The position numbers were made by a program, and so were the translations under genes. Below, one piece after another: positions 1,314-5,898 of a stretch of DNA of 64,000 nucleotides; within the stretch, counting starts at the first letter, position 1, and each line of letters starts with the position of its first letter. The notes beneath the pieces were generated by a model that was not told the DNA's origin, did not search any database, and was given only the letters and a program-made list of their open reading frames with translations. Location: assembly GCF_004006175.1 (NCBI RefSeq), contig NZ_CP033223.1:1-64000 (forward strand), in the 5' to 3' direction. Source of the DNA: Parasedimentitalea marina (lineage in GTDB: Bacteria; Pseudomonadota; Alphaproteobacteria; Rhodobacterales; Rhodobacteraceae).

Positions 1314-2159
1314 ATGGTTACGCAACTTCAGGATGCAACACTGCGCGATCGTGCCCGTGCCTTTGTCGAGCGTGACAGCGTCAGGAATTCAATTCTTGGG
1401 ATCATCATTTTAATGCGATCACTCTCGGGCTAAGCACATCGTCTTCAGTGACGGAGCAGATTGGCGGGCTTCTGTGGGTGATCGACCGCGCGGTATTGGT
1501 GGTTTTGTCGCTGAGCTGGTGCTAAAATTGTTTGCCTATGGCTGGCGGTTCTTTGCGTCGGCCTGGAATATTTTGACTTGCTGGTGGTTTCGGTTGGCGT
1601 GCTGCCTGACAAACAGGGCCTGTCGGCGCTGCGCGGGCTACGGGTGTTGCGGGCATTGCGATTGCTGTCGGTGGTGCCGCAGATGCGGGCTGTGGTGCAG
1701 GCGTTGCTGGACGCCTTGCCCGGCATGGGCGCGGTCATCGTGATGCTGTCGATTGTCTATTACGTCTTCGCGGTGATGGCGACGCTGATGTACGGTGCGG
1801 CATTTGATGAATGGTTCGGCACGCTGGGCCGATCTTTGTATTCCTTGTTCCAGATCATGACGCTGGAAAGCTGGTCGATGGGGATCGTGCGGCCAGTGAT
1901 GCTGGTCTATCCAATGGCCTGGATCTTTTGTGCCCTTTATTGTGATCACGGCGTTCTCGGTGCTGAACCTGTTCATCGGTTTGCTGGTCAATACCATGCA
2001 GACCGCTGTGGAGGACGACGCCGAGGGAATGAAAAACTGCGCGAATTGGTGCGGACGGAAACGGATATTGTCGACGCGCATGTGATAGAATTGCGCGAAG
2101 AAATCCGGTCACTCCGCGCCGAATTGTTGGCAGCCCGGGGAGAGTCAAATGGCGGATAG
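1314..2159 (+). CDS. Voltage-gated sodium channel, NavBac type (frameshifted)
   Basis: This encodes a six-helix ion transport protein of the bacterial Nav family in the inner membrane. Reading through the frames gives S1 with ILNAITLGLSTS, an arginine-rich S4 (ALRGLRVLRALRLL), the selectivity filter TLESWSMGIVRP and a C-terminal coiled coil (ELREEIRSLRAELLAA). These are the expected NavBac landmarks in the expected order, and the length of about 280 residues is normal. Five one-base losses are needed, near 1416, 1509, 1572, 1928 and 2029, each in or beside a short homopolymer. The ATG at 1314 follows a GGAGG at 1302-1306. The stop overlaps the tssB start at 2149 by 11 bases. NavBac channels are known in marine alphaproteobacteria, but a position fused to a T6SS operon is unusual. 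As written the gene is broken; I think this is sequence error. Confidence 0.85.
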
Positions 2160-4197
2160 CTCGCAAAAATTTATTGCCCGCAATCGTGCGCCGCGCGTGC
2201 AGATCGAATATGATGTGGAGCTATACGGTGCCGAGAAAAGGTGCAGCTGCCCTTTGTCATGGGGGTGATGAGCGATCTGGTTGGTAAATCCAGGTGGCGC
2301 AGCCGACGGTGGCGGATCGCAAGTTTTGGAAATAGACGTCGATAACTTTGACGACCGCATGAAGGCCATGGCCCCACGCGCCGCCTTTACGGTGCCCAAT
2401 ACATTGACCGGCGAGGGCAATCTGGCAATCGATCTGACCTTTGAAAAGATGTCTGATTTCTCGCCCGGGGCCATCGCCGCCAAGGTGGACAGCCTGGCGC
2501 CATTGCTCGAGGCGCGCAGCCAGTTGAGCAATCTGATGGCTTATATGGATGGCAAATCCGGAGCCGAGGCGCTGATCGAGAAAATTCTGGGTGATACCAG
2601 CCTGTTGTCGGCCTTGTCCGCTGACGGGCCGGACGCGGGGGCAGGCATGGAGGCGGCATTGTCCAGTCTACGCGGCGCGGATCTGCCCGAGGCCGAGGTC
2701 GACCAAAGCAGCGATATATTGGCTGGCTTGCGCGCGCAGGCCCCGCAGGATGTTCCGCAGTCAGATGATCTGGGCTCGGCATTGTCAAGTCTGGCGGCGG
2801 TTGAGATCGAAGAGGTAGCAAAAGACGACAGCGCCGGGGTGCTGGATGCCCTCGCAGCCCAAAAGATAGTAGAGGAGGAAGACACCAGTTCCGACGATGC
2901 GCTTGAAAGTCTGGCTGCGGTCGAGATTGCCGAGACACCGGAAGACGACAGCGCGGATATCCTTGGCGAGCTTGCAGCGCAGGACGTGGCCGAGGTCGAG
3001 GACACCAGTTCCGACGATGCGCTCGAAAGTCTGGCGGCGGTTGAGATAGCCGAGACACCAGAGGATGACGGCGCGGATATTCTCGGCGAGCTTGCGGCGC
3101 AGGACGTGGCCGAGGAGGTCGACACCAGTTCCGACGATGCACTCGAAAGTCTGGCTGCGGTCGAGATTGCCGAGACACCAGAGGATGACGGCGCGGATAT
3201 CCTTGCGAGCTTGCAGCGCAGGACGTGGCCGAGGTCGAGGACACCAGTTCCGACGATGCGCTCGAAAGTCTGGCGGCGGTTGAGATAGCCGAGACACCAG
3301 AGGATGACGGCGCGGATATTCTCGGCGAGCTTGCGGCGCAGGACGTGGCCGAGGTCGAGGATACCAGTTCCGACGATGCACTTGAGAGCCTGGCTGCGGT
3401 TGAGATAGCCGAGACACCGGAAGATGACGGCGCGGATATCCTCGGCGACCTTGCGGCGCAGGACGTGGCCGAGGAGGAGGACACCGGTGCTGATGAACTG
3501 GCGGATCTGTTGGGCGGCGGAGAGCGTCAACGAAACGCCAGAAGAGGATCTGTTGGCAGATGTGCTGGGCAGCTTGGAGGCTCCTGATGACGCGGTAGCA
3601 TCCGAGGGTGGTGTTGATGATATATTGGGCGATCTGGGTGATTTGGCCGTGACCGAACCGGATGAGCCTGTGGATGCAGATGGGCTGGACGCCCTTCTGG
3701 GAGATCTGGACGCCTTAGATGACACCCCACGGCCGAGGCGCCTGAGATCTCGGATGAAGATGACACGGGATTGGATGACCTGTTGGGCGATTTGTCGGAC
3801 GATACCAGTTCGGACGATGCGGGCGCGGACGATCTGGATGGACTATTCGCCGATCTCGATGACGATGCAGCACCTGCACTGGACGACACTGATGGTCTGG
3901 ACGACTTGCTGGGGACTTAACAGATGAGGATGACAGCGGGCTGGACAGTTTGTTGGCCGACGACAGCACTGCTGATGACGATAGCGATGATCTGAATTTG
4001 GACGATTTGTTGGGGTCATTGGATGACGATACATCCGAGGACGCCGAAGAGGCGGGTGACGATTTAGACGCTCTTTTGGGCGGGTTGGACAGCGTGGACG
4101 ACGGCGAAAGCGACGCTGGGGCTGACAGTGCGACAGACAGCGGTGCAGAGACAGTGAAACCAAGTCCAAGCGACGATCCGGAATTTGCCTATGGCAC
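2149..4197 (+). CDS. tssB: T6SS sheath small subunit TssB with a long acidic repeat extension (frameshifted)
   Basis: The first ~165 residues are a textbook TssB/VipA: SSQKFIARNRAPRVQIEYDV, then FVMGVMSDLVGKS, EIDVDNFDDRMKAM, VPNTLTGEGNLAIDLTFE and NLMAYMDGKSGAEALIEKIL. TssB pairs with TssC to build the contractile sheath. Normal TssB stops here; this frame instead runs into about 500 Asp/Glu-rich residues, including five 40-residue tandem repeats and many short L-D-x-L-L motifs. Frames must be joined near 2237, 2291, 2324, 3205, 3530 (a gain or a two-base loss), 3727 and 3914. After correction no stop separates this region from the TssC-like domain that follows, so 2149-5898 may be one ~1,250-residue fusion. 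The boundary at 4197 is only a convenience. SD-like GGGGAGA precedes the ATG. Confidence 0.75.
2881..3479 (+). repeat. Five tandem 120-bp coding repeats, acidic 40-residue unit
   Basis: Units begin at 2881, 3001, 3121, 3240 and 3360, each opening with GA(C/T)ACCAGTTCCGACGATGC. The third is 119 bp because one G is missing near 3205, which causes a frameshift. Each unit encodes about 40 residues starting EDTSSDDALESLAAVEIAET and ending in LAAQDVAE. Copies are nearly identical, so copy number can change by recombination and short-read assembly could collapse or expand it. A degenerate copy precedes the array (2821-2880) and a diverged continuation follows it (3480 onward). Confidence 0.9.
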
Positions 4198-5898
4198 TAT
4201 GAGCAGTGACCGGCCTGAGCCGCAGAAATTGCAGCGTAAGCGGTTCCGTCTGGCGATCCTTGGGGATTTCTCGGGGCGGGCGGCAAAGGGAGTGTCGAGA
4301 TTGGCGATGATCTGGCGGCGCGACGCGCGGTCATTCTGGATCCGGATACCGTCGAAGATGTGATCGAAAGCTTTGCCACCGAACTGCTGTTGCCGATTGG
4401 CAAGGATGGCGCTGGCATGGCGGTGAAACTGGGCGGGTTGGATGACCTGCATCCGGACGAATTATATGAAAACGTAGAACTGTTCTCAGAGCTGGTCGGG
4501 CTGCGCAAGCAGTTGCAAAGCGGTGTCACCGCGGACCATGCGGCCAAGACACTGCAGGACTGGGGCGAAAAACACGGCACCCGCGTCAAGCCCCCGAAAC
4601 CGCGATCGGGCGGCAATGCCGTGCCTGCGGATTGTCGGCTCAGCGCGTTCCAGCTGTTGGTTGGCGATGCCGAGAACCAGTTAGGGCAAGCCTCGCCGGT
4701 GCAGGATTTGCTGGCGCGCGTGGTGGGGCCGCATATCCGGGCGCTGCCCGACGCCGATGTGACTGCGATGATTGGGGCCGTGGACGAGGCGCTGACGGAT
4801 GCGATGCGCATGGTGCTGCACCACCCAGAGTTCCAGTCGCTTGAGGCGCAGTGGCGCTCGCTGGATCTGATCGCCCGATCGGTTGAAGACGACGACACGT
4901 TGGACGTCATGCTCTATGATATTTCGGCCGAGGAGCTGGCCGCAGATTTGACCGCAACCGAGGACCTGAGCGACAGTGGCTTTGTCAGATTGCTGACCGA
5001 AGAACCCCTGGATGAGGAAAACGGACGCGGTGGATATTCGGCGCTGATCGGGTTGTATCAGTTTGAGGAAACCCCACCCCATGCGGAATTGCTGGGTCGG
5101 ATCGCGCGGGTGGCGGCGCATGTGGATGCGCCCTTCCTGGCCGGGATCTCTCCCGTCTTTCTGGAGACCGAGAAAGACAAGTTGCCCGGCGTGGTGGCCA
5201 AGGCCTGGGATACCCTGCGCGGAATGGCAGAGGCCGGGCATTTGGGTCTGGTGTCACCCCGCTTTATGCTGCGGCGCCCCTATGGGGCCAACAGCGAGCC
5301 GATCTATGAGTTTCAGTTTGAGGAATTCACCGAAAGCGAAGGCCTGCGCGGGATGCTTTGGGCCAACCCGGTGGTGCTGGCGGCGATCCTGTTGGCGCGT
5401 TCGTTCAAACAGAATGGGGCGTCGATGGGGCTGGGGCAGATCATGTCGCTGGGCGATATCCCGTTTCATTATGTCAACGACCGCTTCGGGGATCAGGTGG
5501 CGCTGCCCTGCACCGAGCGTAATATCAATCTCGACAAAATCGCGCTGGCGCAAGAGCGTGGCTTTATGGCGGTGTCGGCCGTCAAAGGGCGCGACGAGAT
5601 CCGCCTGACCTCGTTTGGGTCACTGGCGGGTCAGGAAATTCTGGGACCGTGGACCGGCGCCCCGGCGCCAAAACCCTCGCCGCCAGATCCAACGCCTGCT
5701 GCTGCAGCGGCGCCAGCTGGCGATGATCTTGATGATTTGGGTCTAGAAGATCTGGACCTGGGTGGGGATGATGATGATACTGGGCTGGAAGATCTTGACG
5801 CTCTTCTGGCTGGGTTTGGCGACGATAGTGATGCTGACGGTGATGCTGACGACGACGATATAGACGCTGATCTCGCAGCCTTGTTGGACGATTTATGA
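4198..5898 (+). CDS. Truncated TssC-like contractile sheath domain protein with acidic tail (frameshifted)
   Basis: The middle matches the N-terminal half of TssC/VipB: VLHHPEFQSLEAQWRSLDLI, then a YSALIGLYQF segment, HVDAPFLAGISPVFL, LRRPYGANSEPIYEFQF, LWANPVVLAAILL and an ALPCTERNINLDKIALAQERGF segment. It stops near the GPW after that, so the TssC C-terminal part that contacts the next ring is missing. In its place is an Asp-rich tail with LEDLDALLAG-type motifs to the end. Before the TssC-like part is a domain beginning RFRLAILGDFSGRA, seen in some divergent sheath proteins. One base is missing near 4290. The ATG at 4198 has no Shine-Dalgarno and the upstream frame is open, which favours a fusion with the TssB part. 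It may be an accessory or capping sheath subunit beside a normal TssC elsewhere; that role is inferred. Confidence 0.7.

Follow-up and report, generated by a model that had tools for sequence, protein, structure and literature searches.

The sheath of the type VI secretion system (T6SS) is generally described as consisting of two separate proteins, TssB (VipA) and TssC (VipB). Here, we analysed a 64,000-base stretch of DNA from Parasedimentitalea marina (hereafter the window), which forms the start of contig C5 (110,566 bases) in a genome of 5.08 Mb and five contigs, and in which a TssB domain, an acidic stretch and a TssC-like domain follow one another. The gene is almost certainly a frame-broken copy of tssCL, which belongs to the roseobacter T6SS cluster as an accessory gene. 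TssCL was named in 2022 in Leisingera and other roseobacters (Suria et al. 2022, PMC9515649), so that a TssB tethered to half a TssC is not new, contrary to what the original prediction had supposed. According to the accessible part of that paper, TssCL is a long protein that combines a pair of VipA domains with a single VipB domain and is encoded beside normal tssB and tssC, as is the case here; identity to TssB is 86% for the first VipA domain and 26% for the second, the VipB domain is 31% identical to TssC, the protein is reported from Alphaproteobacteria only, and Tateyamaria clusters possess two tssC and no tssCL. The same part reports no role for TssCL in sheath assembly or contraction, and mentions neither missing handshake parts nor a bead array nor a stand-alone core, the three features described below. 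The name TssCL was found in no other paper and 'TssB-TssC fusion' gave no literature match, preprints and subscription papers being outside both searches; a literature search for VipA/VipB-domain fusions in Burkholderiales returned only PMC9515649.

Three other types of sheath protein can be compared with TssCL. It has the sheath folds in common with canonical TssB/VipA and TssC/VipB, and its first TssB domain (TssB1) closely resembles that of the genome's canonical TssB; in contrast to the canonical proteins, its TssC part lacks PF18945 (gpW/gp25-like) and its second TssB domain (TssB2) is short at the N-terminus. Agrobacterium TssC40/ImpD is, like TssCL, a divergent TssC found beside a normal one; in the accessible part of PMC3702570, a table marks Atu4340/ImpD '+' and the two TssCs are described as not redundant. 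We rejected orthology between the two, since six TssC40-type proteins (our label for second-TssC proteins adjoining tssC in other genomes, compared by alignment) can be aligned to the C-terminus of TssC and lack any match to TssB, whereas TssCL is not a full-length second TssC free of a TssB part. Finally, the complete single-chain TssB-TssC of the Holosporales type joins TssB and TssC in one chain, as TssCL does, but it has PF18945, and the two genomes checked have no TssB match besides it. These two proteins (L140:7027-9015, minus strand, 663 codons; L141:1449-3389, plus strand, 647 codons) are each the sole PF05591 match of their genome, and all of the 120 homologs among the matches listed for the L141 protein carry PF05591, PF05943 and PF18945, several being named Holosporaceae or Holosporales. 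Among the best 8 of 155 literature matches on fused proteins of Holosporales, none names that order.

The window copy of tssCL is frame-broken in the assembly and was analysed piecewise and unmended, so that its continuity rests on intact relatives. For this, 80 loci were fetched from genome contigs with a core alignment, the core being TssB2 plus the TssC part; 14 were cut by contig ends and left out. TssB, acidic linker and TssC-like domain lie in one open frame in 57 of the 66 informative loci, as well as in 8 further loci from plasmids and other genomes, some of them from the same strains. The TssB of TssCL is a domain and not a separate gene. Among the nine non-fused loci, seven hold the core alone, with 577–630 codons between stop codons. 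In Sulfitobacter sp. M05, the linker is retained behind a decayed TssB (~35% identity), and in an uncultured Sulfitobacter it is retained with no TssB detected; the arrangement as two separate genes, which had been named as the refuting case, did not appear. A search for long homologs gave at least 383 proteins, and 113 of the 120 among the matches listed carry both Pfam domains. In the two annotated records that were compared, the public gene start lies downstream of the earliest start that the open frame permits: the P. psychrophila record has 1,082 annotated residues, while a start before TssB gives 1,249. In Leisingera caerulea (L041:5975-10876), 593 residues are annotated inside 1,634 open codons, TssCL being under-annotated there.

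The original prediction had also noted the absence of a ribosome binding site before the TssC part, which holds for most loci. A start codon (ATG, GTG or TTG) with a Shine-Dalgarno-like stretch was found within 48 codons before the core in 10 of 55 loci, no more than in control linker windows (17% of 712), and an internal start for a separate TssC product was rejected as the general case. When only ATG is counted, the figures are 7 of 55 against 0.00 (rounded) in the control windows, and any ATG occurs in 36 of 55 loci against 14%, in regions that differ in composition from the control windows. A minority of loci may therefore start the TssC part internally. It should be noted that the Shine-Dalgarno rule is weak, as only 27 of 55 TssB1 starts pass it. 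In the window, such a stretch precedes the ATG at 2149.

Profile searches with the separate window pieces recovered the expected domains. PF05591 (TssB) matches at 2281-3285 with 109.4 bits over profile positions 51-152, a six-frame search places TssB at 2176-2622 (132.5 bits), and the canonical TssB model TIGR03358 (cut-off 97.25 bits) gives 102.3 bits for the window piece and 194.3 and 207.1 bits for two intact fusions, all above the cut-off. The identity of TssB1 in 55 relatives to the canonical TssB of the window genome is 72–88% (median 80%). PF05943 (VipB) matches at 4360-5895 with 149.3 bits over positions 2-299 of 301. The match to the TssC model TIGR03355 stops at position 343 of 473, indicating that the C-terminal part of TssC is missing, as had been predicted, and its 142.2 bits lie below the canonical cut-off of 271.5.

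The TssC-like part is not merely half a TssC joined to a TssB, because a second, shortened TssB domain precedes it. This domain is weak in the window (4300-4518, 20.8 bits for a cut-off of 24 in the six-frame search; the core search also places a match at 4172-4294) and clear in intact relatives, with two PF05591 stretches and PF05943 in one chain in the four long relatives scanned. The profile match of TssB2 leaves out roughly the first 26 positions. Moreover, PF18945 was not listed for the window piece, for any of eight core proteins or for any of five proteins of a separate scan, while a control TssC has it. Against TIGR03355, the TssC part reaches about half of the cut-off, and the seven intact relatives score 101.5–145.4 bits. 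The core therefore looks like a single-chain sheath body without the N-terminal strand of TssB and without the gp25-like domain of TssC, i.e., the 'handshake' parts that link sheath subunits into a tube. Many residues are invariant across 33 aligned cores.

The linker had been taken as a long flexible acidic stretch. Among 55 fusions (two of the 57 fused loci, with TssB1 cut by a contig end, were left out), it is 348–1,204 residues long (median 645), with a median of 32% D+E and 1% K+R. A Leu-type motif (hydrophobic, Leu/Ile/Val, two residues, hydrophobic) occurs at a median of 25 per linker compared to 15 in shuffles (median z 5.0, lowest 1.2), and the stricter pattern [DE][LI]xxL[LM] at a median of 6 (0 to 19) compared to 0.2 expected. 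The spacing of the motifs peaks at 20 (286) and 21 (411) residues among 1,585 spacings, compared to 11 and 14 in one shuffled set. The linker is thus a fairly regular string of short Leu-rich beads and not featureless. A full-length structure model is poor (pLDDT 48, pTM 0.30), yet it predicts helices at about the bead spacing. The five tandem 40-residue units noted previously were recovered in the window by Tandem Repeats Finder as 5.1 copies of a 120-base unit with 90% matches. A Leu-rich motif resembling the beads closes the protein in all 88 loci, and the same kind of C-terminal motif is found in 116 of the 120 relatives among the matches listed for the core of Eleftheria terrae. A second tail motif is kept in all 14 aligned proteins spanning the Rhodobacterales and Burkholderiales-type groups.

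The core is rare, yet more widely spread than published. In a family sample of 394 genomes, 103 had a TssC-type match and 40 had a core (at least 599 bits), each of them together with a canonical TssC match. A PF05591 search of ten genomes found one canonical TssB in addition to the core's TssB2 in each of the seven with short cores. The stand-alone core (~600 aa) occurs in several Rhodobacterales and in Burkholderiales, as in Eleftheria terrae, where it follows tssK in a cluster that holds canonical tssB and tssC. A search with the latter core gave at least 691 proteins; among the 120 matches listed, of 515–649 aa, 110 carry both domains, and the few that are named include Aquabacterium, Roseateles, Variovorax, Xylophilus and Caldimonas, which we take to be Burkholderiales. 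Of 398 genomes sampled from Pseudomonadota, a TssC-type match was present in 88, a strong core in one (the window's own genome) and a divergent core in two (273–284 bits). Divergent cores of 479–530 codons with no acidic tail were observed at L139:3808-5301 (minus strand), in a family member, and at L143:1396-2985 (plus strand) and L144:1504-2940 (minus strand), in two other Pseudomonadota. The L143 protein has a stretch resembling a ClpV motif between TssB2 and TssC, as read by eye, and L144 adjoins an FHA-like gene.

In a quick tree of 45 cores, 12 Burkholderiales-type forms are split from the Rhodobacterales forms by a branch with a support of 98. Short Rhodobacterales forms are nested among long ones in at least two places, and the long form needs 6 changes, at least 4 of them forced by well-supported branches; the G425 core, which sits on a very long branch, was ignored. 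With the tree rooted on the Burkholderiales-type forms, we infer that the ancestral core was short, that Rhodobacterales gained TssB1 and linker once and that losses followed, although the long form may have been gained repeatedly. In a separate tree, 60 of 61 TssB1 rows group apart from 25 canonical TssB rows (support 88); the TssB1 domains may have a single origin.

The closest annotated plasmid match to the window is pQS-2 of Parasedimentitalea psychrophila, whose TssC-like part is 94% identical over 84% of the query. Its gene order is tssA-B-C-hcp-tagJ-tssE-F-G-H-hypothetical-ion transporter-TssCL-vgrG-hypothetical-PAAR-tagH-tssK-L-M-tagF-phosphatase-kinase, and the window follows this roseobacter-type order except for the gene at 1-1248. 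A normal tssC, for which a look upstream of base 1 had been suggested, lies with tssB on the same contig C5, in a tssA-to-tssH run near the contig end (Table 1); judging from the P. psychrophila order, this run would continue into window base 1. Given that the rest of the order begins in the window, C5 is probably a circular plasmid opened within the T6SS cluster.

Table 1. Features of tssCL and its surroundings in P. marina (positions in the window unless C5 is given).
Feature	Position	Strand	Remarks
Ion-transporter gene	1314..2159	+	Directly upstream, 11-base overlap with TssCL start; frame-broken
TssB1 domain	2149..2640 (end approximate)	+	Near the genome's own TssB; frame-broken
Acidic bead-string linker	2641..4195 (bounds approximate)	+	Frame-broken
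About 5 tandem copies of 40-residue unit	2881..3485	+	Tandem Repeats Finder
TssB2, shortened second TssB-like domain, and join to TssC part	4196..4764 (bounds approximate)	+	Frame-broken
TssC-like body (PF05943, no gp25-like domain)	4765..5622	+	Pfam
Acidic tail holding a pair of conserved Leu-rich motifs, of which the second is C-terminal	5680..5895	+	Translation, relatives
vgrG (tssI)	5961..8057	+	Next gene 3' of tssCL; frame-broken
PAAR gene	8689-8987		Frame-broken compared to P. psychrophila
PPM phosphatase gene	17599-18320		Frame-broken compared to P. psychrophila
tssA-to-tssH run	C5:99836-110523		Just before contig end; holds canonical tssB and tssC
Canonical tssB	C5:100980-101432		Profile search of genome contigs
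Canonical tssC	C5:101684-102592		Profile search of genome contigs

In the ion-transporter, vgrG, PAAR and phosphatase genes, all ten frame-breaking gaps are losses in the window compared to P. psychrophila, such gap counts being unreliable in repetitive or diverged stretches, e.g., the linker and tagH. The frame breaks may reflect sequencing error or decay, and the window copy is classed as a broken or mis-assembled TssCL rather than a working one. A relative of the ion transporter is present in five of the nine non-fused loci and not in the other four. The gene at 1-1248, between tssH and the ion transporter, has no significant similarity to its P. psychrophila counterpart (E 0.11) and matched no family above cut-off in profile scans; it is a variable gene inside an otherwise conserved cluster.

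Considering the architecture, the missing domains, the conserved motifs and the co-occurrence with canonical sheath proteins, our preferred reading, with a probability of roughly 0.4, is that TssCL is an accessory, non-polymerising sheath-like subunit that recruits a partner to the sheath. The core, with the middle and outer sheath domains and neither handshake part, could stack onto canonical TssB/TssC, either on the outer side or at an end, without joining the inner mesh. The acidic tail, together with the long linker in most Rhodobacterales loci seen, would display short LxxL(L) motifs that recruit the partner. In Rhodobacterales, TssB1, with its high identity to canonical TssB, would replace a TssB in the sheath wall and would tether the bead array there. 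Its C-terminus would let the linker leave the sheath outward, since residues 136-172 are untraced in the TssB1 protein of a solved sheath, as given in the accessible part of PMC5807055.

Several observations weigh against this reading. Tethering is not essential to the core, which stands alone, with neither TssB1 nor linker, in Burkholderiales and in 7 of the 66 informative Rhodobacterales loci, and the two Sulfitobacter loci keep a linker with a decayed or undetected TssB1. Moreover, some linkers hold no strict motif, beads are weakly enriched in the linker with the lowest z, the quality of the full-length model is low, and the partner of the Leu motif is hypothetical. Sheath binding is deduced from sequence, and the absence of the handshake parts does not establish it by itself.

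The beads could also act off the sheath, TssCL being a scaffold whose LxxL(L) motifs bind ClpV (the ATPase), TagJ or another T6SS protein and so regulate sheath turnover, which we consider unlikely. As a lead only, [DE]LxxLL resembles the N-terminal EFASLL of HsiC1-class TssC (accessible part of PMC4239648), which is also present in the TssC of the window genome, and visual inspection of one divergent core points to FLDSIM, a stretch similar to LLDEII, between TssB2 and TssC. However, the same source describes the N-terminal helix of HsiC1 as dispensable for ClpV1 binding in P. aeruginosa. A version based on phospho-threonine and FHA docking in the linker was rejected, as T-x-x-D is not specially enriched (1.16-fold over expectation at +3, against 1.40-fold at +4).

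The apparent lack of both handshake elements in a kept sheath body would suit a cap or length limiter, in which the core joins the distal end and blocks the next ring; the original prediction had considered capping, limiting or branching of the sheath. This is quite improbable, as the related cluster and the window contig have TssA, one class of which stays with the distal end in other systems (accessible part of PMC5813253), and a bead array of 350–1200 residues is needless for capping. Still less probable is a baseplate element, in which TssE, a lone gp25-like domain and hence what the core lacks, would complete the first sheath ring together with the core. The missing domain is indeed PF18945, and TssE is given as structurally homologous to sheath domain 1 in the same part of PMC5813253; but sheaths mostly manage without the core, as the 398 Pseudomonadota genomes indicate, a survey that included no search for TssE. 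An assembly artefact or decaying pseudogene, i.e., two genes fused by error or relics, is hardly tenable even though the window copy and several neighbours are frame-broken, since the intact open frames of relatives, with invariant core residues and a conserved C-terminus, refute it as a general explanation.

A bolder form of the non-polymerising reading is rather doubtful. Here, an old, thinly spread family of single-chain protomers that lost both handshake elements, in Alpha- and Betaproteobacteria and with divergent forms elsewhere in Pseudomonadota, would be a dedicated non-polymerising sheath partner (cap or TssE complement), from which roseobacters would have made a sheath-tethered array of ~25 binding helices with a 20–21-residue pitch that could count or follow sheath rings.

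Overall, the original architectural reading of a broken sequence was correct and careful. What is new here is the TssB2-TssC core without handshake parts, the stand-alone core beyond roseobacters, and the bead array with its conserved terminal motif; the handshake-less core and its wider spread raise the interest of the family. The regular bead array provides a clear, testable binding hypothesis, and the stand-alone core of Burkholderiales makes the question open to study outside roseobacters. A conserved third sheath-like protein that has the body and lacks the linking parts offers a natural way into the question of what starts, stops or marks sheath growth.

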